From NCBI RefSeq assembly GCF_022376445.1, contig NW_025954967.1, positions 310,001 through 374,000 of the forward strand: a stretch of DNA of 64,000 bases, read 5' to 3'. Made by a program: the position numbers and the translations under genes. The notes under the pieces are model-generated. The model was not told where the DNA came from. It worked only from the letters and a program-made list of their open reading frames with translations, and ran no database searches. This DNA comes from Fomitopsis serialis. Its lineage: Eukaryota > Basidiomycota > Agaricomycetes > Polyporales > Fomitopsidaceae. Position 1 is the first letter of the stretch. The number at the start of each line of letters is the position of its first letter. Below, one piece after another: positions 10,465-55,195 of the stretch.

Positions 10465-13027
10465 CATATCTTTAAGCTGAGGATGCCTTTGCATTTCAAT
10501 ATTGTATTGGTAGGTACGAATAATGAGATTGCTTTACCTTCGCGTCAAGCCAGTCAAACACAGGTCCTAAGATATTCTTCACGGACTGGTAAATTGATGC
10601 ATTTGTAGACTGCGTCATGTCCTTGGACGGGTATGGAATGAACTGATGATAGTTAGTCTTGAGACCGCCAGTCCTCTTCATGGTCATAGGCGGCACGTTC
10701 ACTGGAGCGTCTTTTCCCTACAAAGGTGCATGATTCGTTAGTAGGGAGCAACACTCAATCAGTTGAGAACATGAACGTACAGTGGTACAGTGGCGATTGT
10801 ACCAAGAGAAATGCATGACCTGGAAGACATGGTCACCGCCAACCTGAGCTGTGTCTATTGCCTTCAGGGCATCAGGCTCAAGGCACGCTGCGAGACGATC
10901 CATCAGACCGTCTCGCAGGCTCTGCGGCATTGATTTGCAGATATTTGCGATAACGCCTGACTGTACAGACTGTATAGCGAGTACGTCCCTGTCGATACGG
11001 ACATCAGATCTTCAGAGTCAAAGAACAGTTCGCATTGTTCTGTCTTACTCAAATAGATCTCGTTTGAGCCTGACGTATCCCTTGCTGGTTGGGCGCATGC
11101 CGTCCACATACTGTGTCTGTAGCTATCAATTGGTGATTGCGTTAGCTGTGATTACGAGTACATGGACTGCAACTTACCAGTGATCGCAGCTCATCTAGGC
11201 TTGAAGGTTCCATGGCTTCCATTGCCACGGACCGTTGAAGCTCAGTCCATCGTGCGTTCTTCTCTCTATGCCTAGGAGGTTTGAACTGTCGGTTGTGCGT
11301 TAGGTCTGCATCGTACTTTGATGCGATAATCGTTGCAGTTGTAGCGAATCCAGCGTCGTCGCGAATAGTGGAAGCGGACACTGAGTGTTCAGGCGAACAA
11401 GGGAAGCGATCGATTTCGAGTAGTGGTGACAATTGTGACAGCGGTGTGAGAGGGGAAAGGGGTTCTTCTCTCTGGCTACAACCAAAATGAGCCCAAGCTT
11501 CTGGGTTGCGTGGGACGGCAGTAAAAGAGCTGTGTGGGAGATAGTCAGTGCCAAAGTTAACCAATCGCCGGGTCTGTTAGTCACTTACTTTGAAGGAAGA
11601 GCACTGAAGAACCTGTCAGAGATATTGAGGTCGCCACATAGGCTGTCAGCCGAGACGCCCAGTGCGGTGAGTGTATCTACTGTGAATAGGTCGCCCAGTC
11701 GTATAGGGGACTGGTCGGATAGAAACGCCACAGTGGGAATGACAGTCTGCAGGACTTGTCGTCCCACTGGGCTCTCTAGATCCAGTTGAGTGTTTAGTGC
11801 ACGCAGCATGATGCGAGCAGACTTGGACTCACCAGCATCTGGGCATCGCAATATGTTGGCGAGGTCTGATGCCAGATTGCCATTCGCCTCAATGAACGGC
11901 ACACGTAAGTTGGTGTATGCCATCCACACAAGCATGTAAACGGTTCCTTTAATGCAGTTTCACCATCAATCTAGTACTGTCTAGCGCACACGACACAGGT
12001 ATCTCACCTCCTGATGCAAGCCTTGCCAACTTAGTACCTCTGGAATACCAGTATTGTAACGTTCGGATGCTGGGCGGTTTGGCCTCTCTCGCAAGGTGGT
12101 CGCGCCATAAAGCTGAGATGTTGACGTCGGCCCATCCGGACAAACTAGACACACAAACGTGTCAGCCTGTCGTTGTCAAGTTATAATTTTAGATTTACCT
12201 TGCGCACTCGAAGCTCACCCTCATGAGGGCGACCATGAAATGGAAGTCAAATACACCGTGTTTGCTCTCCATCGCCTTGCAACGTTTTACTAGCTGAGAC
12301 AACGTCTCACTCTTGTCGCCGTACGAAGCTTGGTGAGGCGCAAAGAGTGAGTCCGCGCAGCCGGCGATATCATCCTTCTGGTCGTATGCAGTGAGAGTCG
12401 ACAGGAAATTGACGACGGACGTGTTAGCAGCTTCATGGGGTTTAGACGACATCTCCCAGGCTGCTCGGGGCTGCATGTCGCTGGCGATCCACTGGATGCC
12501 ACTCCTGGGGCAGGGCGGCAGTGGGAAGTGTGCTGGCTGCTGTTGATTGCTACCAGCAGGCCTAGACGCAGGGTTGTACGGTGCTACAGGGATTTTACGA
12601 CGGGACCTAGACGGTCGCCTTGGACCTATTGCGCGGCGTGCAGGCTCTGAGACTTTGTGAGTACGATGGACTCACAATCAATCAATACGTTTACCTTGTA
12701 CCGTTACTGTACTGCTTGAGGTCGTATGCGTAATGTTACTAGCTTCTTCGACTAGACGTGCAGCATGTCATTTACTAGCATGACATGTAGAAACAAGACA
12801 GGCTTACCTACGGCCACTTCAGTACCACTGGCATGTGCCATGTCTTCGGCGTCCTGGTGAGTATCGCAGGCCGTTTCGCAGGCCGTTTCACAGGCCATTT
12901 CGCAGGCCGTTGTTGCAACGTCCAATGACAGACGTGCCAGCAGAGACGTCATGTTAGGACTCAAAGTCCCCTGGATTGAGGACAGGAGCTCACTGAGCTC
13001 CTTCATCTCCTGTAGACTTAGCCTCAT
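10465..13027 (-). pseudogene. Dioxygenase gene T1, catalytic C terminus missing
   Basis: Homologue of the intact T2 gene at 38205-41266. From the ATG at 13027 (MRLSLQEMKEL, aligned with MQLTPEEQTDL) exons follow in the same order: a basic Pro-rich region ending PPCPRSGIQW; SLFAPHQASYGDKSETL; TLQYWYSRGTKLARLASGG; VYMLVWMAYTNLRVPF; GRQVLQTVIPTVAFL; a Ser/Pro-rich exon; VMHFSWYNRHCTT; and TNYHQFIPYPSKDM with ILGPVFDWLDAK. These exons look open after splicing. The final exon, which in T2 holds the HxD...H...R iron and 2-oxoglutarate site, is replaced by the hAT-like element and unrelated DNA. The product, if any, cannot be a dioxygenase. A G-rich minisatellite (13246-13440) lies between A1 and T1, in the likely promoter. 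Confidence 0.75.
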
Positions 13028-13245
13028 TTCGTGGAAAACTCGAATGTGAGAAGACGTGAGAGGACCAGAGAGAGCGTCGCATTCGATTCGATCAAGTCCT
13101 TGATTGTGAATGCGGCCAGCGCTACAATTTGGGTTAGGGCTTGCAGTCCAACCCACACATATATATTGAACATAGAACGTAGGATGTATAGCACAACTAG
13201 CAAACTACAACAGCAATCGATAGCACTTTACATTGCGAACGCGAA

Positions 13246-13440
13246 CACGACGGTGACGGGAGACGGCGAGATGGTGGCGACGGGAGACGGCGATGGTGAC
13301 GGGAGACGGCGTCGGGAGACGGCGACACGGGAGACGGTGTCGTTGAGAGGACGGTGACGTTGAGGTGACGACGACGATGACGGCGATGGCGGTGACTCGG
13401 ACAAGGGGAGGGCGATGACGGTGACGTGATGGGGATGACT
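13246..13440. repeat. GACGG/GGGAGACGG minisatellite upstream of T1
   Basis: Degenerate tandem array with units such as GACGGGAGACGGCGATGGT. It lies between the A1 stop (13463) and the T1 start (13027). A similar but shorter GACG-rich stretch precedes the A2 end near 48720-48760. It may affect T1 transcription; that is inference. Confidence 0.6.
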
Positions 13441-13462
13441 AGGACTAGGACATCGTGTCCAG

Positions 13463-15367
13463 CTAACTCGAGCTGGGCCGCTCTTTGAGTCTATCCTTCG
13501 CCTGCTCGCCCTCACCGTCAGACGTGCTGTCACGCTTGCGTTTGAGAGCCTGTTTGCTAAGGACGAAGAACTCCTCCTCTATATCGTTCTTGTCTTCCTC
13601 AGACTCCACCGCCACAATGAACTGACTGTTCGCGCTGCCCTGCAGCGCAACCACAGCCTGGCCCTTGAGCAAGGAGACATTGCGAAGGCGGTCGACGGTG
13701 GTCCCTCGCGCACCTTCCCTGATGCTGCGAATGATGCGATGCACGTCTTCGTCATAGCACAGGGCCTCATCGCTGGGATGGAGCAACTTGCGAATATACG
13801 TCAACATTTCTTCAGCCTGAGCCTCCCGCACGTTATCGTCTTCCACGAGCTTGAGAGCGTCCAGGAGTGTTTGCTTGTGTTCACGGCGAGACAGAAGCTT
13901 GGCTAGCGTTGCCAATCGCTTCTCGTAGCCGTTGCGAACTTTACGCAGGAATTTCTCGACCAATGGCTTCATGTTGTCGTCACAATACTCGAGGATCGGC
14001 TAGGCGGTGCGGCGCTGTCAGTGAACGTCTATCAGCTACTGGATAAAGACTTACGATGGCCAACCCTCTAGCCACCCACTCCTCCATTTTCCACTGTAGT
14101 CGCACTCCCAACCTGAGCGTATCGAGTTCCTCCACTGGAACGTATATCCACCAGACTCGAACCGCGCCGAAGAACGTTGCCTTGTGCTCTGCAATGAACG
14201 GACCAGCTCCGCTGATCAAGTCCGGATTCTCGCGCAACATCTTTTTGTAGGTGTGTTCGTCGTAGGTGATGGCGTTGACTGTGTATTCCTTCGTCTCTGG
14301 CGAAGACCATTTCGCCTTTGCGCTCTTACCGGGCTGGAGCTCTTCAATGTTGAAGCAGGACAGGGCAATGAGCCCACATGAGGGCACGCCTGCGCCATCC
14401 ACTTTTGTGTTCCCCATCAGGACGTCCGCTATGTCCACAATCTGTACGTACATTTGAGTGACCAGCGAAATTGCTATCAACTATTCGTACTTACTTTAGG
14501 CAATGCCCCTTCCTCGCTGTCAGTCGTGTAGACAGGCTGAGATTTCGCGGTCTCATTAACGTCAGTAACTACGAGAACATCGCCCACTGAGATCGCCTCG
14601 ACCATATCGCCCACTATCTTGTTTCCTTTCTTGCCACGCACAGAGGCATACTCCGCCTGGCCGATGTCGATGTCCAAGGCTCGTCGGATCCACTTCGGCG
14701 GTCTGAAGGACTCAGCCCACCTCTCTCCATTCATCGTCCTCAGCAGCGCTATGATACGATCGTGTATGGGAGATGGCGCCATGGTAGTCAACTCCTGCCT
14801 GTCTTGATCATAGTCAAACCTGGTTTCTTGTATTCAGTAATCATACGCATCCGTCTGTCTCATCTGGAAATAGACCTACTTGAAGCGATTGAGTGTGTCG
14901 TTAGACCCTAGCCAGTTGCGCAATTCTTCCCACTCCTGCGACGTAAAATCTGCTGTCTTCTGCATGCGACGTAATGAGTGACAATAAACGAGATACAATA
15001 ACGTGCTAATACTCACTATTTCCCCTGTCACGTACGGAAGCTCAGAGTAGCGATCTCCGAAAGCCTTCCGCACGACGTCCGGGTAATCGTCCTCCGTTCC
15101 TTTAGTAGTTAAACTGCATAAGCCGACGTTCCCTCTGCGTTAAGGACAGCACTTTGGACAGCTCACCTGATTGCACGGTGTTCGTATCCTGAACTGTGAC
15201 AGGCGCTTCCCTTCTGGTATGGTCGAACGTTATTATGCCAAGAGGTCGGGGAGTAGGTGAGCGCGAAGAGTGAGACGAGTGGGTATAAGACTGAGAAGGT
15301 AGGGGGTGGGTGAGCGCGAAGAGTGAGATGAGTGAGTCCGAGACCGAACGATAGAGGTGGTTGACAT
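13463..15367 (-). CDS. Unrecognised module protein A, copy A1
   Basis: Member of a three-copy family (with A2 at 48767-50881 and A3 at 35454-37855), always between transposase P and dioxygenase T. The start at 15367 is chosen because MSTTSIVRSR matches MSPTSIVRSR of A2. Visible blocks in order: DVVRKAFGDRYSELPY; FTSQEWEELRNWL; APSPIHDRIIALLR; IGQAEYASVRGKKGNKIVG; CFNIEELQPGKSAKAKWSSP; FFGAVRVWWIYVPVEEL with WKMEEWVARGLAI; then a long helical, charged C terminus with LLHPSDEAL and a KRKRDS patch that may act in nuclear entry. About six exons. A near-duplicate of about 53 bp (15258 and 15311) near the 5' end shifts frame unless spliced, so the first exon is uncertain. No known domain was recognised, and no function is assigned. 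Confidence 0.65.
15258..15363. repeat. Imperfect 53-bp tandem duplication in the A1 5' region
   Basis: TGAGCGCGAAGAGTGAGA occurs at 15258 and again at 15311, with similar sequence following each. The 53-bp period is not a multiple of three. It lies inside the predicted first exon of A1 and could disrupt it or be spliced out. Confidence 0.6.
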
Positions 15368-15696
15368 GTTGCTGAACGTGGTTAACGGCAAGTCAGTTCC
15401 TCAGAGGGCTGAGACCCTCAAGAACTCAGTCGCCCTTGCTGACTCAAACGGAGCCTGCGTTGTCAAGTGACATGGCCTAGATTAAACGCTTCCGCTCAGC
15501 CTCCGACAAAACATCCGTTTAGTATTGGCCATGTTCTCATTGAACGAACACGAGCTCACCTCGATTGCTCACTCACAGGCTCACAGTTAACAGGGTTCCT
15601 TGTCTCACGACTCATCCTCATGATCAACCCAAGCTCGCTCTGGCACTGCCGGCATTTGAATCTAATCGGGGCGGCTCGGGTTTCGATCCGCGGTGC

Positions 15697-15764
15697 CCTG
15701 TGGCGCGTGCCGTGTGCCGTGCGAAGCGCCATTGCGCACGGCTTACAGCGGCTTACGCCACAGG
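15697..15764. repeat. Inverted repeat in the A1-P2 divergent spacer
   Basis: Outer arms CCTGTGGCG (15697-15705) and CGCCACAGG (15756-15764) enclose inner arms GCCGTGCG (15716-15723) and CGCACGGC (15735-15742). It lies 330 bp upstream of the A1 start. Inverted repeats occupy the same relative place in M2 and M3, though their sequences differ. Confidence 0.7.
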
Positions 15765-15780
15765 TTGGCGAGCGGTTTTG

Positions 15781-16006
15781 AAGTACAGTACTCAAGAGAC
15801 CAGAACATCAAAAATGTGCTTACCGTGCGTCCACGCCAACTTGGCGAAGAGGGTTTGAAATCCCTACTGAGCTTGAGAGACGAACTGTCAAAGTACAGTA
15901 CTCAAGAGACCAGAACATCAAAAATGTGCTTACCGTGCGTCCACGCCAACTTGGCGAAGAGGGTTTGAAATCCCTACTGAGCTTGAGAGACGAACTGTCA
16001 AAGTAC
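15781..16006. repeat. Exact 110-bp tandem duplication
   Basis: 15781-15890 is repeated without a visible mismatch at 15891-16000, and the first six bases recur after that. It lies in the A1-P2 spacer, upstream of P2. Perfect identity implies a recent duplication, or an assembly artefact. Confidence 0.9.
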
Positions 16007-16408
16007 GTACTTACGGTAGCAACGCGTGTCAATGTAAGATCGCAACAGTTGTCGTCGCGTTTTTTGGACGAACACGCAGATGAACACGCGAACACGCAGA
16101 CGAATGACCTATAACAACACAGGAACCATTATCAGCATGGTCTCATGTAGGAAAGTGAAAAGCGAATGTATACTTGCTGGTGCTCGTAACCTACATGAAG
16201 GCTGAAGGAGAAAGATGCGGGTAACGCGCTGAACTAACGCTGAAGCGCTAAAGCAGTGACATGACAGGTGAAGGGACGTCTGAATTTTTTAGCATGGTTT
16301 TAAGCCTCAGGCTCTGCATCGTCTCGAGTCTCTTCCCCTAGTCCTAGCTGCAGTTTTGTGTCTCTGTATCATCGCTTCTGAAGTCTGCAGTGAATTTCTG
16401 GGTTAGTT

Positions 16409-19400
16409 ATGGTCAGACCAAAGCGGAAGCGCACCTTTGAGGACCTCCTCAATGACACCTGCGGCGCCTGTAACCAGCCCTTCGAAACGACACAGGGCCT
16501 CGCCGCACACCAGAGCACGAGCAGGAAATGCTCCTGGTACAAGAAAGGGAAACTGAAAGAAATATTCAATGTCGACCACGATCAAGAAGAGCCAAGCGAC
16601 GGTGTAACAATCGAGGACGCACGGTAAGCCAATCAAATTTTATCGCACCTTTGGTCATATAATGTAACCGGTGCATGTAGAAACACGGAACTGTTCACCC
16701 TACCTAATCGTTCCGGTTCCCAGAACGACGAGCCAGACGATGCATACCTTGGAGAAGATGACAGCGATGAAGCAGCGGAACTTTCTTCACTCTACGACTA
16801 TATTCAGGTCTGCGCTCCTTCTCGGCCGCAGGGTGATCCTGGAGGGTCAGGGCAAGATGGTGGAGGCGGAGGCGGCGAACGAGATCGCGGCGACAACAGT
16901 GCAGGCGGCGGCGATCCCGGTCCATCGACTCAGGCGGCACGAGCTTTGACTTCCAGACGAACCGCGCTGTTGCTTGATGACGATGAGGACGAGCGAGTGG
17001 TAGACGAAGACCAAGACGCGGGTACAGTTACTCACGTCGACCCAGAGGTGCGGCGCAAATGGCTAGAGGGCAGGGAAACAAGGCCTAAAGGTGAGTAATG
17101 TTTTGACCGATAACGAGTACTTCTCACCGTAGAGTAGCTCGTTCGAATCATGTTGAGGACGCAGAAAATGGTCGCGCTGAAGAACACCCAGATGGCGGGG
17201 GTACCACAGATCCCACCAATATCCCTTGGGAGCCGTTTGAGTCCGAGATGGACTGGCGCTTCGCATCTTGGGCAATCCAGGAAGGACTAACGCAGGGGTC
17301 CATTGACAGAGTATTGCAGATACCAGGGGTGAGTACTCGTGCTCTGTTAGTAATATCTGCTGACACACCTCAGTTTCAAGAGAGACTGGGTCTCTCATAC
17401 CACAACAGCTGGGCTCTCCTCCAGCGCGTGGACTCTCTGCCTGAGAGAGCGGAGTGGACAGAACGCCTGCTCTCATTCAAGGATCGTCCTAATGAAAAAC
17501 ACCTACTACAGTTCCGCGATATCATCCAGGCGATACGTACATTACTAGGCAACCCGGAGCACGCCGATCGAATCGTGTATCGACCGCGCCGATTGTTTTC
17601 AGACGCGTCAAGGAAGCACCGACTGTACAATGAAATGTGGACCGGTCGTTGGTGGCACGCCGTCCAGGTGAGTACTTACACGACCGTAGAAGATCGATTT
17701 TTCTGATTGCAGTACAGAATCTCTTACCGGTAGGCGCGGCTGTTGCGCCGGTAATCATAGCTACGGACAAAACCCAGTTAACTCAGTTCTCTGGCAACAA
17801 GGCGGCGTACCCTGTATACATGACGCTAGGTAATATACCTCGGGCTCTGAGGCGCAAGCCCTCAGAGCACGCCTGCATACTCATAGGTTATCTGTCGGTG
17901 GACAAAGTCAGCTCGGACGGCATCACGCAGCGCAAGCAACACGCCCTCGTACAACAACTGTTCCATGTGTCCGTTGGCGCAATCCTGGAGCCGCTAGTCA
18001 AGGCGGGTAAGGAAGGCATCAACGTAACCTCAGGCGACGGAGAGGTTCGTCGAGTGCATCCCGTCCTTGCCGCGTATGTCGCGGATTATCCAGAGCAGTG
18101 CCTGGTCACCTGCGCCAAATCTGGGACTTGCCCCAAGTGCCAGGTACCTGAGGACCTCCTTGAGTCCGCGCAACCTGGGATGCCCAGAACCTCCCTCTGG
18201 ACGCTAGACGTACTCCGACTCGCCAACCAGAAGACCCAAGGCAAGACGAGCTCGAACGCGTACACTCGAGCGTGTCAAGACCTCAACGTTTCAGGCTACG
18301 TCGTGCGCCCGTTCTGGCGCGATCTTCCGTACACCGACATCCATTCGTGCATAACCCCTGACGTACTACATCAATTGTACCAGGGTGTTTTTAAGCACAT
18401 CGTCGAATGGTGCACTCAACTTGTCGACGAGCACGAGCTCGACAGGCGCATCCGCTGCCTTCCGCCTGCGTTCGGTACCCGCCACTTCAAGAACGGGATT
18501 TCCTCCCTATCCCAGGTCTCCGGGACCGAGCGTAAGCACATGGCGCGCATTCTGCTTGCCTGCCTGGTCGGCAAGATACCGAAGAAGGCCATCCTGGCCT
18601 TCAGGTCGATTTTGGACTTCATCTACATAGCGCAATACACCACTCACGACGACACTACGCTCCAATACATGGAGGACGCACTCAAGGTTTTCCATCGCAA
18701 CAAACAAATCCTCGTAGATCTCGGAGTGCGCGACCATCTGAATATTCCTAAATTCCACTCATTACTTCATTACGTTGACGCTATCCGACTCTTAGGCACT
18801 ACCGACAACTACAACACGGAGGCGTTTGAACGCCTCCACATCGACTATGCGAAGAACGGCTGGCGAGCGTCGAACCATCGCAACGCGCGTCCGCAGATGG
18901 TTCGTTGGCTGGCACGGCAGGAGAAGATGGTCGTGCTCAGCTCTACCATACGCCGATGGCTCAGGAATACCGGTCTCGAGCCAGGGGATGACATCGATGT
19001 CAGTGACGCAGAAGACCAGGAGCCAGAGAAAATACCAGGCTCTCGGATCTTCAAGAACGGTCGAATTAACCTACCCAAGCACCCCACTGCACCCCTCCAG
19101 GCTCTCTCATCCATTGTCGACAAACACCGCGCCCCAGGCTTCGTTGATGCAGTCGCACAATACATCTACAAGCTCAAGGACGGTCGACCTCTCACTTCCT
19201 CACTGCTTAAAACAGCTGTCGACCACATGCCGTTCCAACGTCTTGACGTATTCCACGGCTTCAAGTTTACCCCCGAATCCTTGACCGATGACACCCAAGA
19301 AACCGACGCCGTGAAGGCGAAGCCCGCCAAAGCTGGACAAGCCGCACGTTTCGATACCGTGGTTGTGCTGCAGGGGGAGGACGCGGAAGCTACTGGCATG

Positions 19401-19871
19401 CAAGGTGAGTAGATTTGTTTCTATTCACGTCTGAGTCATAGCTTCTTACTCATGTCCTATTCGTCCACAGGCACACGTATTGGACGTGTCAAAGTTATAT
19501 TCAAACTTCCTCAAAACATCAGAGATCCCCGTACCCTCCGACCTCTGCAAGCGCCGCCCAATTGGGCTAGCCAAGGGGCTCTAGCATACGTAGAATGGTA
19601 CTCCAATCTACCTACACAAGCCGATCCGATACACATGATGTACCCGGTTCATAAACCGCCCCTTCGTGCGAATGGCAACCCCGTCGGTGAGGTTATTCCA
19701 TTGTCAATTATCCGACAATCCTGTCAACTTGTTCCACGTCCCCCTGGGTCTACACGCACCGATAACTTAGTAGTACCTGATGACTGGGACACGCATACTG
19801 TACTAGATAAAGCTACTAAGTTTTGGCTTAATAACTGGGCATCTAAGTATGCGTATCAGACACTGTGGTAG
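16409..19871 (+). CDS. Plavaka-type transposase P2 (module M1)
   Basis: The best preserved of the closely related transposase copies. The ATG at 16409 starts an exon with a C2HC finger (CGACNQPFETTQGLAAHQ, then Cys) and the block CSWYKKGKLKE. An acidic, Gly-rich exon follows, then PWEPFESEMDWRFASWAIQE, QERLGLSYHN, LLQRVDSLPERAEW and NEMWTGRWWHAVQ. The core exon (about 17720-19404) holds IIATDKTQLTQF, AAYVADYPEQCLVTC, CPKCQVP, TPDVLHQLYQGVFKHIVEW and EAFERLHIDYAK; the Asp, Asp and Glu are candidate catalytic residues. The last exon (19471-19871) ends SKYAYQTLW. Six exons can be joined with no internal stop seen. The splice acceptor before NLLPVGAAVAP must be the second AG, since the first gives a stop. 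Divergent from A1 across 1042 bp. Confidence 0.88.
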
Positions 19872-20555
19872 AATACTTACATAGAACTTTAGTACGAACT
19901 GAACAATGTTTGATCTCTACTATTTGGAACTCTGTCAAGTATTCATGTCGTCCTCAACGATACTTCAACGGAACTTCATCGCTCTTCAAATCGTATTTTA
20001 TTGCTTCACTCAACCGTGCGATCGCCAACTTCACTCGGCATCCTCCGGAATGGGCGCCTCGCACTTCGGTCCTCGTCAACAACTCCACACCACCTCTCCT
20101 ACCTCGCTCACCTGCCTTCTCGCCTGCTCGCCTTCTACCGTCCCACTACGACCTTGCTCGGTAGCCTTCCTTTTCGTGAGCTCACTAGTGCTTTCGGCTT
20201 CTTTCTTTCTCTCCCAGCCGTCGACTTGTCGCACGTCCAGTCGTCCGACCGCCCACTCGGCCGCCCGCTTGCACCCCGCCCACTCGCTCAGGTCTCCCTT
20301 CCCGCCTGTCCGCATTCAACCACCTCTCTACAATCTTGGTCGGCAGTCTACTTTCCCATCTACTCACCTGTGCTCTCAGATGTATTCTTTCTCACTCGGC
20401 GGTTGACTTGTAGCCCGTCCAGTCGGGTGAACCTCGAGAGGGTCGTGCAACGGACGAGGAGGGAAGTCAGGTACGTGAGGGCGAACAAGCGGACAAGAAG
20501 GGTCGAAACCCAAAGGTACGTTCTTGCTCGCTGTATGATCATAGTTCCCCGTAAG
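19872..20555. repeat. Segmental duplication flank shared with 55196-56130
   Basis: Downstream of P2, phrases such as CTCACCTGCCTTCTCG and the CTCGAGAGGGT...GTGCAA block near 20430 recur in the same order downstream of P4 (55340-56060). No gene is recognised. It joins directly to a COPA fragment near 20556, where about 1.3 kb present in the other copy is missing. Confidence 0.7.
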
Positions 20556-22460
20556 ATGGTCACGACAACGCCTTGATCGTCTTCAAGCTTGAGCATGGGT
20601 GACCTGCCTTTGCGGTGCATGGCGACTCTGTCTTCTACGTGCAGGACAAGTATGTGCACTCATACGACATCAGCACTGGCTCGGATTTCGGTCTGCTCAG
20701 CGTCCGCAGGTTTGGGAGCCCATACGTCCCTCCGTGGACGCTCCGCTACAATCCTGCGGAGCGTGCCATCGTGTTGAGGATTTCGTCGGATAATGGCTTG
20801 TTCGAGCTCACGGCCCAGCCGAATGATGCCGTTGGGGAAGTGAAGGACTCGTCTACATACGGCAAGCGTGGAAGTGGCCATGTGGCCATCTTCGTCGCCA
20901 GGAACAAATTCGCAGTCACGAACAAGACCACCCAGGTTCGTCTCGCTTTGTATCATACACACTGTAATCCATCGATACGTTCTTGTACTGATCGACGTGC
21001 GCGACCTGCAAAACTCAATCGTAAAGTCTATCAAGCAGCCGGTCCAGACGAACGAGTTCTTCTACGGTGGCACCGCGAGCCTCATCCTCAGCTCGACAAC
21101 GTCAATCCTACTTTACGATATCCAATAGCAGAAGAAGCGTGTGGAGATCACTACTCCGCCGGTCAAGTACGTTGTATGGAGGCCGGACGGTACATTGGTC
21201 GCCCTCCTCAGCAAGCATAGTACGTATCTGGCACATAACGCTCTGATGTCCCGTTGATGAGCATTCCACAGCGATCACCGTCGCGAAGAACTTTTCGGAG
21301 CGCACCCTCATTCACAAAACGATTCGCATCAAGTCTGGTGCTTGGGACGACTCCGGCGTGTTCATCTACTCGACGTTGAACCACATCAAGTACTGCCTTG
21401 CGCAGGGGTGCGTAACACTGCTTTATGTCACGACGGTCGCCTTCATTTGACCATATTGCAGGGACCGCGGCGTCATCTGCACGCTCGACAACCCTGTCTA
21501 CTCAATGCGCGTCATTGAAGGGAAAGACCGTCCACTGCCTTGATCGATCTGCACGCCCCAGGACTATCACCATCGACGCGACTGAATACCGCTCTAAACT
21601 GGCTCTGTTGCGAAACAATCATGAGGAGATGTTGCACGTCATTCGCACGTCTAACCTACTCGTAAAAGTGTCATCGCGCACCTACAACAGAAGGGTTTCC
21701 TGGAGGTATGCACATACGTTACTATAGTGCATCAGCGATCTGACCATCGCTCGTAGATTGCATTGCATTTCGTACAATACAAGAACACGCGATTCGATCT
21801 TGCGATTTAGTGCGGGAATATTGAAGTCGCATCGGAAATGGCTCGCGCACTCGATCGACCTGAGTTGGGAGTGACTGGCGCGGCAAGCTCTGAAACAGGG
21901 TAACCACAAGGTATTTGGTTTTTGTTCCATTGTACAATGCCTGGGTTCTAAGATATGCCTTATAGATCATCGCGAAGGCCTTCCAGCAGACGAAGAACGT
22001 CTGCCCTTCACATACTCACTAAGGGAAGCACTGACAAACTGCTGCAGATGCAGAAGATCGCTGATTCAAGGGGTGACCCCATGTCTCGGTTCCACAACGC
22101 GCTGTATTCGGGCGACATTTTGGGGCTCATCGTTGTGTTGCGAGACATCGGCCTTCGTGCTCGTGCGTTCTCTTGTCAGACTCTTGATCACCCGCTGAAC
22201 GTTTTCACAGATACTCTTGCTTATCTCACGGCGAAGACGAATGGGCTCGACGACATCGCTCTGCAGATCCTCCAGGCTGCTGGCCTCACCGAAGCGGATG
22301 TCGATGACATCCCGGCGTTCGGACCGTCTACGTTGCGACCCCCGCCAGTGGTCGCTCCAATCGAACACCTGACCTGGCCTTCGGTCTGACGACAGCTTCT
22401 GGGACCGTGCGTGCACTCGCTAACTGACATCTGGAAGACGGTGCGACGGCCCCTTATATG
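20556..22460 (+). pseudogene. Coatomer subunit alpha (alpha-COP) pseudogene 1
   Basis: Alpha-COP is the largest subunit of the COPI coat on Golgi-derived vesicles. The fragment starts at the end of the WD40 region (VFKLEHG then a stop, with AFAVHGDSVFYVQDKYVHSY) and runs through the WD-associated region: [81 protein letters not shown]. It ends in [20 protein letters not shown] and [15 protein letters not shown]. Several frames are used and in-frame stops occur. Introns sit at the same places as in the second copy, so it is a DNA-level duplicate and not a retrocopy. All N-terminal WD40 repeats are deleted. A functional gene must exist elsewhere in the genome. Confidence 0.88.
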
Positions 22461-41266: not shown

Positions 41267-41538
41267 CCTAGAAGTAACGAGTGTTGTTGACATGTAGAGT
41301 CAGATAGTTAAGTAAATGAACGTGTGTTTCTTTCTTAAAAGACATGCTGGTCTTGCGGCAATAAACTCAACTCACGGACAACGTCGTACTCCCGTGATCT
41401 TGCGCGGACCTCCTTGGGCAACGGCTTACCGCAACTCGGCGCCCGATTGCTCGGCGCCGCGTCGTGACTTCAACGTTCGCACTTTCCCTCCTCTGCTCGC
41501 TGGGCTTGCTCATCTCTCTCTGATCTTGGACCGGCACC

Positions 41539-41888: not shown

Positions 41889-42432
41889 CAGGAAAAATCA
41901 ATATGTCTTTTTCCTACATATTCAGTCATAATAGGTGCATTGAAGACAAAAAGCATGCTGAAGAGCCTAAAGACCAATTTACACAAGTCCCCCTTTCAAT
42001 TCTGCAAAAGAAGTTCCACCAATCTTGTTTAAGCATGCTTTAGTGCGATGAGGATGTGTAATGTAGCACCATTTTGCTGTACTTATTGTTGCTTTTTGTC
42101 ACTGATTCTGTCTTCATGTGACTCAAATCCATTCGCAAATATGCACCTTGTGCATTAGGCATGATCCACACGACGATGATATTGGTACAACAATGTTCAG
42201 TACTACTTATACAACATGACAACAACACCGAGATGACAAGCCACGACTCGGAGCAACTATACATACCACTAAGACAACATTGATGGCAGAGCGACCGACT
42301 CGGACCGACCGACCGACACACCCTTGAACGCAGTACCATATACTACACTTGATGGTCAATAGTAGAGCGAGATGATTGAATGAGCAAATGCTTCAATTCT
42401 GTAGATGACTGATTGACTTACCATCGACCTAC
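41888..42432 (-). mobile_element. Candidate Helitron 3' end and AT-rich insertion
   Basis: On the minus strand the sequence ends ATTTTTCCTGA followed by T (terminus 41888-41891). Eight bases inside is a perfect 7-bp hairpin: AATATGT at 41900-41906 and ACATATT at 41916-41922. The insertion is AT-richer than its surroundings and codes for nothing I recognise. Its 5' end was not found; the right border here is set by the B2 stop. It sits at the junction of modules M2 and M3. Confidence 0.5.
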
Positions 42433-45333: not shown

Positions 45334-45657
45334 GAGCCGCCTGCGGCCTGGTGTTGGTCGACCTGGTCGACCTGGGCGTTTCGGAGCCTTGTTCGGTTGC
45401 AACCGATCGGGTGACGCGCTTCGAGTCGGGCATGCCTGAATACGTAGCCAGAACACGGAGAGAGGAAAGACAGAGGATAGACTGTAGTGATATGAGAAAC
45501 AAGAGACGCACCGTGGAATTTTACGTAGACGCTGCGAACTTCAACGATCGATGTGAGTGATGTTCATAGAGTCCGAGCGCTGTCAACCATGGGAAAGCGC
45601 TCATGGTATTCGCCAAAACGCGCAAGTTGAGTGAGGACGAGTGAAGCTATGTAGATA
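45334..45657. other. B2-T3 spacer
   Basis: About 325 bp upstream of the B2 start. It should hold the B2 promoter. No gene or repeat is recognised. Confidence 0.4.
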
Positions 45658-45980
45658 CTAATAAATAAAAGTGGCGTTAGTAGAGCAACCATTGCGCTCC
45701 TCCAGCCACTTAATCATTTCTCTGTCCGTGTGCAATACAATGAAAGCCCGACGACCTTTGAAGTGTGAGTTTAAATGCGTCAATTTGCACGATGGAAATA
45801 TCACGAAATCGCCGTTGCGAAGAGGTAGTATGACCAGACCTGGTTCATACAACTTGAACACAAGTTCGCCTCTGTCGATCGGAACTGTTGAGATATCGCT
45901 GCATAGGTTGCTAGCGGAGATCCCCACATGGCTCAGGTTCATGACTATGAAGTTAGCAAAGGGTGGCAGTGAAGTCGCGG
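45658..45980 (-). pseudogene. Dioxygenase remnant T3, HxD motif lost
   Basis: Corresponds to the last exon of T2. It keeps GELVFKLYEPGLVILPLRNG, DFVIFPSCKLTHLNSHFKG, RRAFIVLHTDREMIKWLEE, so the distal His and the Arg pair are present. Where T2 has YAHRDSKDD it reads NLSHVGISASNL, so the iron-binding His-x-Asp is gone. Upstream exons cannot be found; beyond about 45980 the sequence is unrelated. It cannot be catalytic. Confidence 0.75.
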
Positions 45981-46574
45981 CGCCGCGGAGTCACGTCTAG
46001 TACCCTTGACAGACCCACATAGCCTCTTGATCGCAGTGGTGCATCCTGCCCTACCCTGCCTCCTGGACTGCGAATACGATCCTCTACCAACCTTATCGAG
46101 CACTGCGAGGCTACTAGTGTTAGACAACTCAGATCAGCAGACAGATCAGCCACGTCATAGTCGTTAAGAACCACATATTATTGTACTGAATACAACCGCC
46201 GTACAATTCAATACTACCTGGGCACTACATCAGGCTCGCGCGAGCTACATGCATGTCGATCTTCCGTACGTCCGGCACTGCTCCATGAGCTCGGGCTCAA
46301 ATTGTGCTTGCGTGGTCTAAGGCGCGTAGGCTCATCGTGTGTATGCGGCGAGCTGGTCAGGGAGGCGCATCGTGAATTCTGGAACGATCGATACTCCTGC
46401 ATGGGATGTTGGTGCTTGGCGGCCCAGCAATCCTCGGGAGTGATGTGGTAGGGTCATCCTCGACGTGCCTGTACGCATTGGACTGAGGCCTGTCGGGCTG
46501 CTGGTCAACGGGCCCTTGCGCACTGTGTGCTGGTTCACGTTCCGGTGGGCGCCTAGCGGGTACTCACCGAGTGG
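45981..46574. other. Unassigned sequence between T3 and the satellite
   Basis: No gene or repeat recognised. If M3 once matched M2, upstream exons of T should lie here or in the satellite; none is visible. Confidence 0.4.
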
Positions 46575-48512
46575 TCCTGCTTGTTGGGGCTGGTCAAGCC
46601 GGACATGCGTTCACCGTATTGCTGTGCGACGGGTGGTCGTATCCGTACGCATCGGCCGTATCCGTACGCACCGGTGCGTGGTTGCTGGGGCTGGTCAAGC
46701 CCGGCATCGTATTGGTGTGCGACGGATGGTGGTACCCGTACCCGTCGGTCGTATCTGTACGCATCAGTCGTACCCGCACGCATCGGCCGTATCCGTACGC
46801 ACCGGTGCGTGGTTGCTGGGGCTGGTCAAGCCCGGCATCGTATTGGTGTGCGACGGATGGTGGTATCCGTACCCGTCGGTCGTATCTGTCCGCATCGGCC
46901 GTACCCGCACGCATCGGCCGTATCCGTACGCACCGGTGCGTGCTTGCTGGGGCTGGTCAAGCCCTGCATGCGCTCGCCGTATTGGTGTGCGACGGATGGT
47001 GGTATCCGTACCCGTCGGTCGTATCTGTACGCATCAGTCGTACCCGCACGCATCGGCCGTATCCGTACGCACCGGTGCGTGGTTGCTGGGGCTGGTCAAG
47101 CCCGGCATCGTATTGGTGTGCGACGGATGGTGGTATCCGTACCCGTCGGTCGTATCTGTCCGCATCGGCCGTACCCGCACGCATCGGCCGTATCCGTACG
47201 CACCGGTGCGTGCTTGCTGGGGCTGGTCAAGCCGGGCATGTGCTCGTCGTATTGGTGTGCGACGGATGGTCGTACCCGTACCCGTCGGTCGTATCTGTAC
47301 GCATCAGTCGTACCCGCACGCATCGGCCGTATCCGTACGCACCGGTGCGTGCTTGCTGGGGCTGGTCAAGCCCTGCATGCGCTCGCCGTATTGGTGTGCG
47401 ACGGATGGTGGTATCCGTACCCGTCGGTCGTATCTGTACGCATCAGTCGTACACGCACGCATCGGCCGTATCCGTACGCACCGGTGCGTGGTTGCTGGGG
47501 CTGGTCAAGCCCGGCATGCGCTCGCCGTATTGGTGTGCGACGGATGGTCGTATCTATGCCCGTCGGTCGTATCTGTACGCATCAGTCGTACCCGCACGCA
47601 TCGGCCGAATCCGTACGCACCGGTGCGTGCTTGCTGGGGCTGGTCAACCCGGACATGCGCTCGCCGTATTGGTGTGCGACGGATGGTGGTATCCGTACCC
47701 GTCGGTCGTATCTGTACGCATCAGTCGTACCCGCACGCATCGGCCGTATCCGTACGCACCGGTGCGTGGTTGCTGGGGCTGGTCAAGCCCGGCATCGTAT
47801 TGGTGTGCGACGGATGGTGGTATCCGTACCCGTCGGTCGTATCTGTCCGCATCGGCCGTACCCGCACGCATCCGCCGTATCCGTACGCACCGGTGCGTGG
47901 TTGCTGGGGCTGGTCAAGCCCTGCATGCGCTCGTCGTATTGGTGTGCGACGGATGGTCGTACCCGTACCCGTCGGTCGTATCTGTACGCATCAGTCGTAC
48001 CCGCACGCATCGGCCGTATCCGTACGCACCGGTGCGTGCTTGCTGGGGCTGGTCAAGCCGGGCATGCGCTCGTCGTATTGGTGTGCGACGGATGGTCGTA
48101 CCCGTACGCATCGGCTGTATCCGTACGCACCGGTGCGTGCTTGCTGGGGCTGGTCAAGCCCGGCATGCGCTCGCCGTATTGGTGTGCGACGGATGGTCGT
48201 ATCTGTGCCCGTCGGTCGTATCCGTACGCACCGGTGCATGCCTGTTGGGTCTGGTCAAGCCGGGCATTGGTGTGCGACGGATGGTCGTACCCGTACCCGT
48301 CGGTCGTAGTATCTATACGCATCAGTCGTACCTGTACGCATCGTTCGTATCCGTACGCACCGGTGCGTGGTTGCTGGGGCTGGTCAAGCCCGGCATGCGC
48401 TCGCCGTATTGGTGTGCGACGGGTGGTCGTATCCGTACGCGTCGGTCGTATCTGTAAGCATCAGTCGTCTCCGTACGCATCGGTGCGTGCTTGTTGGGGC
48501 TGGTCAAGCAAC
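46575..48512. repeat. Satellite array, about 15 units of mostly 131 or 139 bp
   Basis: The marker GCTGGTCAAGC recurs about 16 times from 46590 to 48500, usually 131 or 139 bp apart, shorter near the right end. A unit has up to four 19-bp subrepeats like CGTATCCGTACGCATCGGC plus a spacer with TTGCTGGGGCTGGTCAAGC and GTGCGACGGATGG. All three plus-strand frames stay open for 614-655 codons, because 131 and 139 shift frame without creating stops. This openness comes from the repeat and is not evidence for a protein. The array lies where the body of T should be in module M3. Confidence 0.93.
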
Positions 48513-48766
48513 AAATCGAATAACTGCGATAGCGATGGTACAAGATAGCATGAGCGATAGCGACAAAGAACCAAGGCATCTAAGGGACGACTACGTCAAT
48601 CTTACACCGCTGGAGACTACACAGACGAGAGCTAGAGAACTACCGTTATTCGTACACTGGTCTCCTGGATGATACAACAAGCGAGGTGAGACGATCGGAG
48701 ACACTATGATCACGACTGAGACGACGGGGGCGACGAGGGCGACGGGGACGACGCATACGAACGAGC

Positions 48767-50881
48767 TCACCCGCGGGAGGTACTCGGTCCATCGCGAGCA
48801 CGATCGTTGGTGCCCTCCGAGTCGTCTTCGCTGCTGTCACCGACACCCTCCCCACGCTTGCGTTTGAGATAATTGTTCTCCAGACGATCTAGGCGAGCCA
48901 TGATGTCTTCCCCCTTCGAATTGCGCCCCCGCTTCCCGGGTTTGCTGCCCTGCGAAACGGTCGCGTCTTGACCGGTGATCCTCGAGTTGTCGCAGAGGCG
49001 TTCACTTGCAGTGCCGTATGCGCCCAACCGGATCTCGCGAACAAGACGAGGAATGCAGTCGTCAAAGTTCAGAGTTTCCTCGGGCGGATTGAGGAGGCGC
49101 AGCAGGTATATGCGAAGTTGTCCGAGCCGCTTTTCATGTTCCTCTGGGGGGAGGTCCATCAGCGCCGTGTCGATGGTCTGCTCATTCTCATCGAGCATCA
49201 GTTGGCCCGCCAACAAGGCTAGTTTCTCCTTGTAGGCTTGCACGACCTTGCCCATGAACGCCTCGACCTGCAGCTGCTGCGCCTCATTATACGAATCGAG
49301 GAGAGGCTTGCTAGAGTGTCAGTGGATTTGAAGTCACAACAGAACACGCTGACTTACGATTGCAAGGCCCCTAGCGACCCACTCCTCCATCGGCCACTTC
49401 GCCTTCACGCCCTCCCTAAAGATTTCCAGTTGGTCGAGGGGGATGTGAAACCAATAGACGCGAACAGCGCCGAAGAAGACTTTGCCCTTCGCGACGAATG
49501 GACCCGCTTTGTGTATCAACTCCGGGTACGTCTTCAGCATCTTGTTGTAGGCGTCGGCATCGAATTTCAGGTCTTTGAGTCGATGATAACCGATCCCTGG
49601 CGATGACCACTTCGCCTTCTCGCTACCGGTCTTCTGCAGCTCCTGGATCCTGAAGCAGTTGAGGGCGATGAGGTTCAGTGAGTCTTCATCGTCATCGTCG
49701 ACCTCCTCATCTCGATAGGCTACGAACCGGTCCGCCATCTCCAAGATCTGCCGTACCAGCTAGATTGAGTAGACTGCACCGATGATTAGTTAAAATTTCT
49801 GACCTTATTGAGTACGCCTTCCGTAGCGCCTTCGTATTCGGTGTACGTAGGCTGAGACTGCGCCGTCTCGTCCAGAGAAGTGATGACCAGTTCGCTGCCC
49901 ACTTTGATTGCCTCGACGGCGTCGGCGATCTTCTTCTTCCCTCCTTTTCCACGCACAGACGCGTAGTCCGCGGTATCGTCAGAAATACCGAGGAGCCTTC
50001 GTAACCACACCGGCGGAAGGAAGTATTCAACGAATCGCTCGTGGAGCATCAACTTCTTCAATGCACCGAGACGGTTGTGTAGGTGAGTTGGCGACATCGT
50101 TGTTAATTCGTTCTTCTCTGGATCATAATCAAAACTACGATATCATGTTCGAAATTATTATTTGAATCTGTTCGAGAAATCAGTACCCACCTGTACCGGT
50201 TTAGCTCGTCGTGGGTCTGAAGCCACTCCTGCAATGCCTTCCACTCTGTCTCAGTGAAGCCGGTGACCACCTGCACAGTGTAATAACAATTTAAATCTCA
50301 CAGGTATCGAACTGCTAAACGGCAAATAACACTTACGAACTCGCCTGCGGCGTAGGGAAGCTCGTTGTAGCGATCCCCGAACGCCTTTCGGACTACCTCA
50401 GGGTATTGTTCCTCCTTGTCGGTCTCGATCTCCTCGATAGCTAGCAGATGTCGATCATCAGTGGATCGCGTAGGTATGCCTGTAGTAGGCACGTCATACG
50501 TACCAGGCTCCTTATTGACTGAGTTCGACTTGTCTCTGGTCGGGCTAATCTCTACCGATTTGATGCCGCACATTAACGAGCGCGCTGCGTGGAGATGGCG
50601 CATCCGGATACTCACCTGGCTCGGCAGAGCTTGCTTTCTTGAAATTGTTAGAGTGTTTAGACCTGGATCTTGCTATATAATGAATCTGTCAGTACCAACG
50701 AAGCGACGATAAAATTCTGTAAGTACTCACCTTCAAGGCTCGTGGCCTGAGATTGGTAGCTCGAGTAAGCGCTGTCCCCCTTCAAGCTGTCGTTGCCATT
50801 GGTAAGACGAGGAGAGATGGATAGAGGTGAGCGGATGGTGTGAGGGACAGAGCGAGAGCGAACGATAGAAGTGGGAGACAT
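48767..50881 (-). CDS. Unrecognised module protein A, copy A2
   Basis: The ATG at 50881 opens MSPTSIVRSRSVPHTIRSPL. After an uncertain second exon come EVVRKAFGDRYNELPYAAG, FTETEWKALQEWLQ, MSPTHLHNRLGALKKLM, DYASVRGKGGKKKIADAVEA, CFRIQELQKTGSEKAKWSSP, VFFGAVRVYWFHIPLDQLE, WPMEEWVARGLAI and a coiled, charged C terminus with LLRLLNPPEETLNFDD, a Gly/Lys-rich NLS-like patch (GSKPGKRGRNSKGE) and NYLKRKRGEG. It aligns along its length with A1, and less closely with A3. Between 50430 and 50640 the reading is unclear and may contain a frame break. It diverges from P4 across 840 bp and ends 255 bp from the satellite. Confidence 0.68.
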
Positions 50882-51720
50882 CTTCGTTCACGATGGTGAC
50901 TCAGAGTATGAGGACCCTCAAGAACCTGCCTGGGGCCGGCCGCCACTCAGGCAAAGGAGCTAAGCATGTCGTCAAGTGACCGGCCTAGCATGTGCAACGC
51001 CGGCACAGCCTCCCCTCAGAGTCCGCAGAGAATTTGTGGCCTTACTGTATGCGTTCTTCGTGTTCTCACTATGCCATCGCGTGCCCCGCCCAATTGGCTC
51101 TTCCAGCTTGTGTTACTCACGCTGGATCTTCGCTACCCCCATTACAGCCAGACGCACTTCCACGGCGGACCGGATTCATCTGTTGTATTAAAGCGGCACA
51201 GGCCCTGCTTTCTCCGCTGTGCCTGTGGCATGTGACAGCTGATGCGCCACAGCTGTCACACGCCACAGCTCGCGATGTCGCATAGCATTGAAGTCCGTAA
51301 GGAAGAGAAAAAAAGCTGAAGTACACACCTTGGGTAGGTTTCCAATACACGCCAACTCCTATGCGATCAAGATGATCGAGTGTGACCTACAACAAACGGT
51401 AAACTGGTCAGTTCAGCATCACGTAGGTATTAGGAGAAAGGATGAATGTTACCAACGCCCTAGCGCTGTCGGGTCCGAGACGAACATGAAGGTTGAACGT
51501 TGAACGTTGAAGGAGAAACGCACCGTGCAACGCGCTTCGTCTGACGCTCACAAACGCCCTAGAGTAACGTAATGACATATGAAGGGTGGTTGCAATTTAT
51601 GCAATGAGTTTCAAAATTTTGGCCCCTCCCTCGTTCGCTTTCCTCTCGGCCCTCATTCCCAGTGCGTATTTATTCCTCTGCTGTGTTTTTGTGAGCCTAA
51701 AATCAGTTTATGGGCTAGGT
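50882..51720. promoter_or_regulatory. A2-P4 divergent spacer with inverted repeat
   Basis: Should contain both promoters. The inverted repeat has 19-base arms at 51223-51241 and 51250-51268 with one mismatch and eight bases between; a second hairpin pairs GGCACAG (51195) with CTGTGCC (51217). No gene recognised. Confidence 0.6.
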
Positions 51721-54700
51721 ATGGTGAAGCGAAAGCGCACCTTCGACGAGCTCCTCGGCGATACATGCGGCGCTTGTCACCAACCATTCCGAACGACGCA
51801 GGGCCTCTGCGCTCACCAGACCATGAGCAAGAAATGCTCATGGTATAAGAAAGGAAAACTAAAAGAAATTTTTACCGTCAAGGACCATCCGGTAGCGTTG
51901 GAAGACGGCGTGATAGTTGAGCACACGCGGTAAGCTCCTAGAAGTCCCTACAGGGTTTGGACAATTAAAATAATGCGTACATTCAGGCGCACCGACCTTT
52001 CGAGCAGACCCGACCATTCTGGCGACGAGTCAGAGCATGTCCCCAATCCATCACCTGAAGAGGACGCAAATGAAGACCTTGAAGAAGAAGAAGAGGACGA
52101 TGAGGACCTCTCGTCACTTTACGATTTCATAGAGGTCTGCGCACCTTCCAAGCCGCCGGGCGATCCAGGAGGGTACGGAGACGGACACGATGGTGGAGGT
52201 GGAGGTGGACACGGTGATGGCGGCGGCAACACAGGCAGCGCTGCAGCAGGGCCATCAACTTCGAATAGTACAAGACGAACTGCGCTCTCGCTGGATGACG
52301 ACCACGACGAGCGAGTAGTAGACGAAGATGTAAGCGCAGGCAAGGTTACCGGCGTAGACGAAGAGGTGCGCAGAAGATGGCTGGAGGGAAGGGAAGGTGG
52401 ACGTTCAGGTTAGTAAGGGATGCTGACACACACCTATGACGACTTGCATTCTGACTGTTGAACTAGGATTAGCAAGTCAAGTAGTTGTCGAGAACGCAGG
52501 AGAAACGCGAGCGGAAGACGCGACAGACGGTGAGGGTACAGCAAAGCAGCCGAAGAACCCATGGGAGCCCTTCGAGTCCGAGATGGACTGGCGGTTCGCT
52601 TCATGGGCAATCCAGGAAGGACTAACCCAGGGTTCCATAGACAGAGCGTTGGAAATACCCGGGGTGAGTACTTGCACTTCCCTGAAGATGATACTAGCTG
52701 ACGTACCTCAGTTCAAGGAGAGACTCGGCTTGTCATATCACAACAGTCGATCCCTCCTCCAACGTGTGGATTCTCTGCCCGAGAGGGCGGAGTGGATTGA
52801 ACGGTGCCTCTCGTTCAAGGACCGACCGAACGAGAGGCACCTTCTTCAGTTTCGCGACATAATCCAGGCTATACGCACGTTGCTGGGAAACCCGGAACAT
52901 ACTGATCAAATTGTGTATCGACCCCGGCGAATCTTTTCAGACGCTTCGAGGAAGCATCGCCTCTACAACGAGATGTGGACTGGCCGTTGGTGGCATGCCG
53001 TTCAAGTGAGTGCTCTTACATCAGTTCATCGGCCCAAATTTCTGAAGCACCTGTAGAGCATCTTACCTGTAGGCTCTACTGTAGCACCTGTCATTATCGC
53101 TACCGACAAAACTCAGTTGACGCAATTCTCGGGGAACAAGGCTGCTTACCCGGTCTACATGACACTCGGCAATATACCGCGTGCTCTAAGGCGTAAGCCG
53201 TCTGAGCATGCATGTATACTCATAGGCTACCTTTCGGTCGACAAGGTCAGCTCGGACGCATTACGCAGCGCAAGCAACGCGCCCTTGTGCAGCAATTATT
53301 CCACGCGTCCGTGCGTGCGATCTTGGAGCCACTGGTCGCTGCAGGAAAGGAAGGAATCGACGTGACATCGGCCAATGGGAGGTTCGAAGAGTGCACCCGA
53401 TCCTCGCAGCATATGTCGCGGATTATCCAGAGCAGTGCCTGGTCACTTGCGCCAAGTCTGGGACTTGCCCCAAGTGCCAGGTACCGGAGGAGCTGCTCGA
53501 ATCCGGCAAGCCAGGTACGCCGCGTACTTCCCTCTGGACATTGGATGTCCTGCGCCGCGCCAGCGAGAAGACGCAAGGCAAGACGAGCTCGAACGCGTAC
53601 ACTCGAGCCTGTCAAGACCTCAACGTATCCGGCTACGTCGTGCGCCCGTTCTGGCGCGATCTTCCGTACACCGACATCCATTCGTGCATAACCCCTGACG
53701 TACTACATCAATTGTACCAGGGTGTTTTTAAGCACATCGTCGAATGGTGCACTCAACTTGTCGACGAGCACGAGCTCGACAGGCGCATCCGCTGCCTTCC
53801 GCCTGCGTTCGGTACCCGCCACTTCAAGAACGGGATTTCCTCCCTATCCCAGGTCTCGGGGACCGAGCGTAAGCACATGGCTCGCATACTGCTTGCCTGT
53901 CTGGTCGGCAAGATACCGAAGAAAGCAATCCTCGCTTTCAGGTCTATTCTAGACTTCATTTATCTCGCACAATACACTACTCACGACGACACGACGCTCC
54001 AGTACATGGAGGACGCCCTCAAGACCTTCCACAGCAACAAGAACATTCTCGTCGATCTCGGAGTGCGCGATCATCTTAATATTCCGAAGTTCCATTCATT
54101 ACTTCACTACGTTGACGCAATCCGACTACTAGGCTCTACGGATAACTACAACACGGAGGCGTTTGAACGTCTCCACATCGACTACGCGAAGAAAGGGTGG
54201 AGAGCATCAAACCATCGCGATGCGCGTCCGCAGATGGTTCGTTGGCTGGCACGACAGGAGAAGATGGTCGTGCTCAGCTCAACCATCCACCGCTGGCTCA
54301 GGAGTACTGGCCGAGAGCCTGCAGACGACGTCAGTGACAGTGACACAGGCGACTCCGAGCAAGACCGGATACCAGGCTCTCGAATCAACTGTCGAATTAA
54401 ATTACCCAAGCATCCCACTGCACCCCTCCAGGCTCTCCGTACTATTGTCGACAAACACCGAGCTCCCGGCTTCATCGACACCCTCGCGCAGTACATCTAC
54501 ACACTCAAGAACGGACGCTCTCTCACCTCGTCCCAGCTTCAGCATGCAGTCGACCGCATGCCTTTCCAACGCCTCGACGTGTTCCACGGATTCAAATTTG
54601 CTCCTGAACCGTTGACGGACGACGCGTTGGAGACGGACGCGGTGAAAGCAAAGCCCGCCACTGCTGGACAAGCAGCACGTTTCGATACTGTAGTTGTACT

Positions 54701-55195
54701 GCAGGGAGAGGATGCCGAAGCCACTGGATTGCAAGGTAACTACCTCGGGTTTTTTCGTAGACGGCTCTTCTAACTTGAATATAATCACTGAGTACAGGTA
54801 CCAGGATCGGACGCGTCAAGGTTATATTCAAGCTACCTACTAGTGACATTAGAGACCCTCGCACCCTCCAGCCGCTGCAACCTCCATTGGAATGGGCTAG
54901 CCAAGGGCCTCTCGCCTACGTTGAATGGTTTTCTAAGCTACCAGCCCAAGCTGATCCGATACATATGATGTATCCTGTACACAAACCTCCCCTTCGCGCG
55001 AACGGCAAGCCCGTCGGTGATATCATTCCTTTGTCACTCATTCGCCAATCATGTCAGCTTGTCCCCTGTCCTCCTGGAGCACGCGCCGTGGCGAACCTAC
55101 CTGATGATTGGGACACCCATACCGTCCTCGATCAGGCGCACAAGTTCTGGCTCAATAATTGGACATCCAAGTACGCCTATCAGACACTTTGGTAG
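51721..55195 (+). pseudogene. Plavaka-type transposase P4, two frameshifts
   Basis: Very close to P2. The ATG at 51721 starts the C2HC finger exon (CGACHQPFRTTQGLCAHQ, then Cys), followed by an acidic Gly-rich exon, PWEPFESEMDWRFASWAIQE, LLQRVDSLPERAEW and NEMWTGRWWHAVQ. In the core exon one base is missing relative to P2 near 53258 (GGACGCAT against GGACGGCAT) and another near 53377, each shifting the frame. The rest of the core is open (from about 53391) with AAYVADYPEQCLVTC, CPKCQVP, TPDVLHQLYQGVFKHIVEW and EAFERLHIDYAK. The last exon ends SKYAYQTLW. The two shifts do not cancel, so no full-length product is expected unless they are sequence errors. Codon use and splice sites otherwise look intact. 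Confidence 0.87.

Follow-up and report, generated by a model that had tools for sequence, protein, structure and literature searches.

The P-A-T-B gene block of Fomitopsis serialis as cargo of nested PlavakaB transposons

Does a block of four genes that recurs within one stretch of a fungal genome belong to a mobile unit, or is it a host gene cluster that was duplicated locally? The question is raised by a locus of Fomitopsis serialis (synonym Neoantrodia serialis), a wood-decaying polypore of the Polyporales. The window, i.e. the whole stretch of 64,000 nucleotides that was analysed, corresponds to C667:310001-374000 in an assembly of 66.2 Mb and 806 contigs; positions below are those of the window unless a contig is named. 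A first-pass annotation had described here three modules, each with a Plavaka transposase gene (P), a gene for a protein A, a TET/JBP dioxygenase gene (T), and a DUF6532 gene (B), and had proposed that they form a composite mobile unit. In our analysis the P-A-T-B block proved to be real, a cargo carried by a large cut-and-paste DNA transposon.

ORFs and Pfam matches supported the order and fixed strands described earlier, with P divergent from A, and A, T and B in series; inside an element the order is TIR - P (reverse) - A - T - B - TIR. The description of the three modules as complete and contiguous did not hold: module 1 is cut in T1, B2 is split, and T3 and P3 are broken. Because the cut at 10465 lies inside T, the TET core and B of module 1 are missing from the window. 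B2 does not adjoin T2, since element 3 (see below) inserted in B2 and the DUF6532 part lies at 61.8-62.7 kb. The stretch from A3 to the T3 core is mostly filled by a minisatellite (46.6-48.6 kb). The reported A-T spacing of 350-436 bp agreed with our values of ~349 bp in module 2 and 435 bp in module 1, obtained by hand from ORFs and inferred start codons; our analysis did not reproduce the 272-325 bp reported for T-B.

The Plavaka transposase domain PF18759 is present in all three elements of the window. It was found at C667:327724 in P1 (16376-19871, forward strand), at C667:342724 in P2 (31252-34591, reverse), and in P3 (51703-55195, forward), which has frame changes near 53.26-53.37 kb; the three genes are similar to one another. 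A search of contig C667 for the KDZ transposase domain (PF18758) gave no match at E ≤ 0.001. Just outside element 2 lies a further, more diverged Plavaka gene, P0 (5155-8408), which has no adjoining A, T or B match.

T1 (10465-13027, reverse) is cut before the catalytic core, and its counterpart on contig C795 runs on into an intact core. T2 (38205-41266, forward) has a catalytic exon at 40874-41266 with HRD...H. T3 (45667-45963, reverse) is a remnant detected by tblastn with T2, and its HxD motif is lost. The start of B2 (41849-41885, forward; start codon inferred) is joined to position 60886 in contigs C223 and C296; its remainder (60886-63371, forward) has DUF6532 in ORF 61776-62690 and an end inferred from ORF 62952-63371. 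DUF6532 (PF20149) matched B2 with E 4.5e-19 and 69.6 bits against a curated cut-off of 24. B3 (43043-44623, reverse) is similar to B2, and its match to PF20149 (E 6.9e-4, 20.0 bits) was below this cut-off.

Nested elements and their insertion sites

The window contains three PlavakaB DNA transposons, with ends CATCAGGAAAAA...TTTTTCCTGATG, in a nested arrangement. Element 2 is the host of element 1, of a gene-less 3.25-kb element, and of element 3. The uninterrupted lengths are 18.2 kb (element 2), 19.0 kb (element 3), and 19.8 kb (element 1). The elements have the PlavakaB termini 5'-CATCA..TGATG-3', and their target duplications (TSDs) are TC for element 2, TG for element 3, and TG for element 1 (from its C795 copy). 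Subterminal repeats were looked for in the elements, and nothing clear was found.

Element 2 (8418-63996, forward) consists of 18.2 kb plus the nested insertions, has exact TIRs, and is flanked by TC/TC at 8416-8417 and 63997-63998. An uninterrupted copy that holds all four genes is present at C223:365283-383508 (TSD TG/TG), with which the left end, middle and right end of element 2 are collinear. The copies on C223 and C296 stop at the TIR and have flanks that differ from those of the window; they are therefore not a segmental duplication. Two other TIR pairings were ruled out: 25863-63996 as element 2, which lacks a duplication (the true left end is 8418), and 8418-24910 as element 1, which also lacks one.

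Element 3 (41886-60885, reverse) is a 19,000-bp insert that sits, from our reading of the frame, ~12 codons into B2. Its two TIRs (41886-41897 and 60874-60885) match perfectly over 12 bp as inverted copies of CATCAGGAAAAA, with TG on the outer side of each. The exact empty site is retained on C223 and C296, where the contigs are uninterrupted at the insertion point; element 3 thus inserted as one exact 19-kb unit. The check suggested by the first-pass annotation, alignment of copies with empty sites, accordingly revealed TIRs, TSDs, and an empty site exact to the base, and these support the composite mobile unit that it had proposed. The P-A-T-B genes are borne by a mobile unit. On C194 a related copy of element 3 keeps one TIR, in a flank unlike that of the window; a search of 4 kb around the place expected for the opposite end did not recover it, and the only match there to the window above 93% was minisatellite.

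Element 1 (10465-24910, reverse) lies within element 2. Its right TIR is at 24899-24910, and its left end, with the TET core and B, is lost. It has 99% identity to a complete copy of 19,802 bp at C795:15708-35509, which has both ends, a TSD of TG/TG, and P, A, an intact TET core, and B. Element 2 is connected with the middle of T1 through an element of ~748 bp (9717-10464) that has inverted ends TAGTGTTTGAAAGTCCAGTCCA and unequal flanks. Such a mismatch is compatible with recombination between two ~748-bp copies and suggests that the junction arose in this way. The gene-less element, 3,252 bp in length (25863-29114, no strand assigned), also lies within element 2, has ends CATCAGGAAAAC...GCTGATG and a TSD of GA/GA, and is missing in C223, where the joint is at C223:367614-367615.

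Recurrence of the gene order across the genome

The TIR 12-mer occurs in the assembly at 143 forward and 145 reverse sites, and its reversed control at 0 and 1. Pairs were counted among the first 100 listed of these 288 sites. Head-to-tail pairs <35 kb apart numbered 24 (15 with genes, 9 without a match), and tail-to-head neighbours at <35 kb numbered 7. P and B are divergent in 14 of the 15 gene-bearing pairs from these 100 sites; the 15th, on C23, has T and B without a P match. The B match begins <2 kb from one TIR in 15/15. Of the same 15 pairs, four gave a T match and two an A match, and some part of this low count is a matter of detection: the pair on C22 had no T match in the count, yet T sequence is present there by the T2 search. 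TSDs were checked in 20 of the 24 pairs; 10 had a 2-bp TSD (9/15 among gene-bearing pairs), vs. 18/380 in a control of mis-paired ends; 1 more had a 3-bp TSD, and 9 had none.

Among the pairs without a match, seven measure 2.8-3.7 kb (C13 twice, C39, C64, C67, C78, C82) and are probably non-autonomous. The pairs on C62 and C75 measure 19-21 kb and are likewise without any match. Short elements with the same TIRs were seen at C89:34349-41078, C113:140150-149333, and C116:2645-9995 (6.7-9.2 kb). They hold P and B matches only, which suggests that P and B are the core. B is the more general partner and occurs even in short elements where T was not detected.

Linkage was also counted from the genes. 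P and B counts are lower bounds, with 123 of 323 P candidates and 150 of 222 B candidates scored; the distance windows for T loci were chosen after the table of distances was seen; and some loci occur as identical copies on several contigs (A3 on three), so that the loci do not count as independent. At 71 merged T loci, B lies just downstream in at least 21 (mirror arrangement, 0), divergent P upstream in at least 17 (mirror, 1), and A in the expected place in 10 (mirror, 0). A convergent KDZ transposase was found at 1.5-10.5 kb in 28 of the 71 (mirror, 0); two unrelated groups of TET-carrying transposons thus seem to coexist in this genome. Three of the 17 P-linked T loci also carry convergent KDZ, and 18 of the 71 loci have none of P, A, B or KDZ.

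A divergent P was found 3.2-4.1 kb away from at least 19 of 40 A loci (mirror, 0). At least one partner is in place at 24/40 and no partner is in the expected place at 16/40; at least two of these 16, on C194 and C318, carry P by DNA alignment. Among at least 119 B loci, divergent P lies ≤20 kb upstream in 49 and is absent in 70. If A and B homologues elsewhere had shown no link to Plavaka or T, the idea of a mobile unit would have been undermined; we found that the same order recurs genome-wide, though not at every locus.

The TET/JBP genes and published TET-bearing transposons

The catalytic exon of T2, searched as one exon alone, matched Tet_JBP (PF12851) with E 4.7e-7 and 29.6 bits, below the curated cut-off of 34.9. 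We aligned 12 Plavaka-linked T cores (T2, the C223 copy, C795, and nine others) with 11 other TETs of the same genome, 7 of which adjoin KDZ and 4 of which have no partner. This sample does not include the broken T3, near-copies on C296, C466, C22 and C64, or other Plavaka-linked T that were not fetched. In the resulting tree the 12 Plavaka-linked T form one side of a branch with support 100/100, apart from the 11 other TETs. The motifs HRD and HxD...H are kept in all 12 aligned Plavaka-linked T, a sample from which the broken T3 is excluded.

TET-bearing PlavakaB elements have been described in Agaricus bisporus and Gymnopus confluens (Agaricales) (PMC12730594; Kojima 2025). The F. serialis elements share with them the Plavaka transposase, the ends CATCA..TGATG, the 2-/3-bp TSD, and the internal TET/JBP gene. 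They differ in the TET type: the Plavaka TETs presented in that paper are of PE type (HxE) and from Agaricales, whereas T of F. serialis, from Polyporales, is HxD, with HRD in 12/12 in place of the HxE of PE type. We mapped the column of Asp337, which characterises the AG type, from the CcTET positions given in PMC12730594; it holds Cys in 12/12 Plavaka-linked T and Asp in 11/11 others. Judged from these residues, Plavaka-linked T is a TET type outside the published PE and AG types. Asp337 of CcTET is described in the same paper as essential for activity on 5mC, and with Cys at this position demethylation by T is not assured.

For Polyporales, PMC12730594 describes only Kyakuja as TET-bearing. 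TET-bearing Kyakuja (KDZ) are likewise DNA transposons with a TET gene and are apparently abundant in the F. serialis genome; they differ in having another transposase, a convergent arrangement, and TETs across the fully supported branch. According to PMC12730594, a link between Plavaka and TET in species including Fomitopsis pinicola was implied by Iyer et al. 2014 (PNAS), and it was left unsettled whether the TET genes lie in complete elements. In contrast to that study, F. serialis provides a complete element and an empty site in a Fomitopsis. The implied association in this genus thereby becomes a mobile element with both its ends and its empty site identified, and the range of TET-bearing Plavaka is extended to Polyporales.

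The first-pass annotation had considered a Plavaka-linked TET cassette with A and B partners unfamiliar. As regards the Plavaka-TET link this needs correction, since the link is published (PMC12730594); the unfamiliarity of the A and B partners stood. The novelty thus lies in these partners and in the TET type. The text examined from PMC12730594 does not mention A or DUF6532 partners, nor are A-like or DUF6532 partners of Plavaka named in the text examined from the literature on Plavaka, Kyakuja and DUF6532 (including PMC9674265 and PMC8290104). PMC8955403, in the part that bears on this point, gives Plavaka, KDZ and DUF6532 next to one another in a list of additional domains, with no linkage. 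With the F. serialis elements, DUF6532 gains a home as a recurrent transposon gene.

Possible roles of the cargo genes and captured host DNA

In our view, at a probability of roughly 0.85, P, A, T and B together make up the genes of large PlavakaB cut-and-paste transposons, and T is an optional but selected cargo. P would cut and paste the element. T, as a TET-family dioxygenase, could oxidise methylated bases on the element DNA, and such oxidation might relieve silencing of the element or mark its DNA. A and B, which are conserved among the elements, may support transposition, e.g. by DNA binding or end recognition, or may act with T. Many copies with and without detected T occur in one genome, so the question of why transposons carry TET becomes testable.

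T, A and B could instead be passengers without benefit to Plavaka, like the coatomer-alpha-like fragment described below, which shows that the elements capture host DNA. T was unmatched in 11 and A in 13 of the 15 gene-bearing TIR pairs (first 100 listed sites), and T3 has decayed within element 3, where both ends are present. The fixed order across diverged elements argues against passengers, as does the position of the B match near one TIR in all 15 of these pairs. So do the dN/dS values, for which pairs were usable at dS 0.05-1.5: 0.06-0.11 for the T catalytic exon (3 of 36 pairs usable), 0.27-0.38 for exon 3 of A1-type (5 of 6), 0.30 for exon 4 (1 of 1), and, for A2-type (5 of 15), 0.24-0.28 in three pairs and 0.54 and 0.71 in two including L053. 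For P, 0 of 1 pair was usable. We regard the passenger reading as unlikely.

T might also make or maintain a hypermodified base that marks or protects the element DNA, instead of removing 5mC. The separate clade of Plavaka-linked T, and Cys where the 11 other TETs have the Asp337 equivalent, are consistent with this, and PMC12730594 allows for other activities in diverged TET types. No second modifying enzyme, e.g. a glycosyltransferase, was noticed in the element, and we consider such a role of T improbable beside that of a selected cargo acting on methylated bases.

Protein A bears on a further reading. A1 (13463-15367, reverse; annotated as P0004, assigned by protein comparison) and A3 (48767-50880, reverse, start approximate; nearly identical to P0001) are of sub-type 1 and 44% identical. 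A2 (35944-37855, forward; the detected part, from ORFs, with 18 genome matches) is of sub-type 2, so that two sub-types occupy the A slot. A relation of the A2 N-terminal domain to A1 and A3 was found by blastp via the intermediates L052 and L053 (E 5e-4 and 0.003) and by profile comparison with sub-type 1 (hhalign probability 92.5% over 36 columns); for the middle domain the relation is weak (29%). Against Pfam, A gave scattered weak, unrelated matches, none of them to a nuclease family and none convincing; PDB sequences gave no match; and a structure model of low confidence (pLDDT 41) gave no fold match. Relatives of sub-type 1 outside F. serialis were absent among the best 8000 candidates by shared words. 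In the N-terminal domain of sub-type 2, PD and E are invariant in 8 rows; when sub-type 1 was added to the alignment, the D and E columns held and the P column did not. The PD...E pattern of sub-type 2 recalls PD-(D/E)XK nucleases of the Uma2 kind. PlavakaB of Polyporales could then be a self-contained epigenetic kit, in which T would mark or unmark DNA and a PD-(D/E)XK-like A would read the mark or cut according to it. If so, the element would tell its own DNA from that of the host or of rivals. We regard this as a long shot.

Between P and the TIR, elements 1 and 3 each hold a single collinear stretch of genomic sequence captured from a coatomer-alpha-like host gene. It spans 3.5 kb in element 3 (56914-60455, forward; 93.1% identical to C479:215311-218840 in one collinear match), and in element 1 (20561-22483, forward) it contains stops and is 85.6% identical to C479. 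Its best other matches, on C479 and C796, were taken as the host copies. That local segmental duplication of a cluster of host genes is all that lies behind the modules is scarcely tenable: the long stretch that could suggest it (17.1-22.5 kb vs. 52.5-59.4 kb, 75-94% identity in many pieces, including a host-like gene) lies inside elements 1 and 3, where the host-like gene is the captured piece on the P side, the copies of element 2 stop at their TIRs amid other flanks, and the exact empty site and target duplications refute it.

Two tandem repeats were observed within the elements. The minisatellite of element 3 (46569-48565) has 139- and 131-bp spacing. The A1-P1 interval contains an exact 110-bp tandem duplication (15781-16000), at which the alignment with C795 overlaps, suggesting that the C795 copy has one unit fewer.
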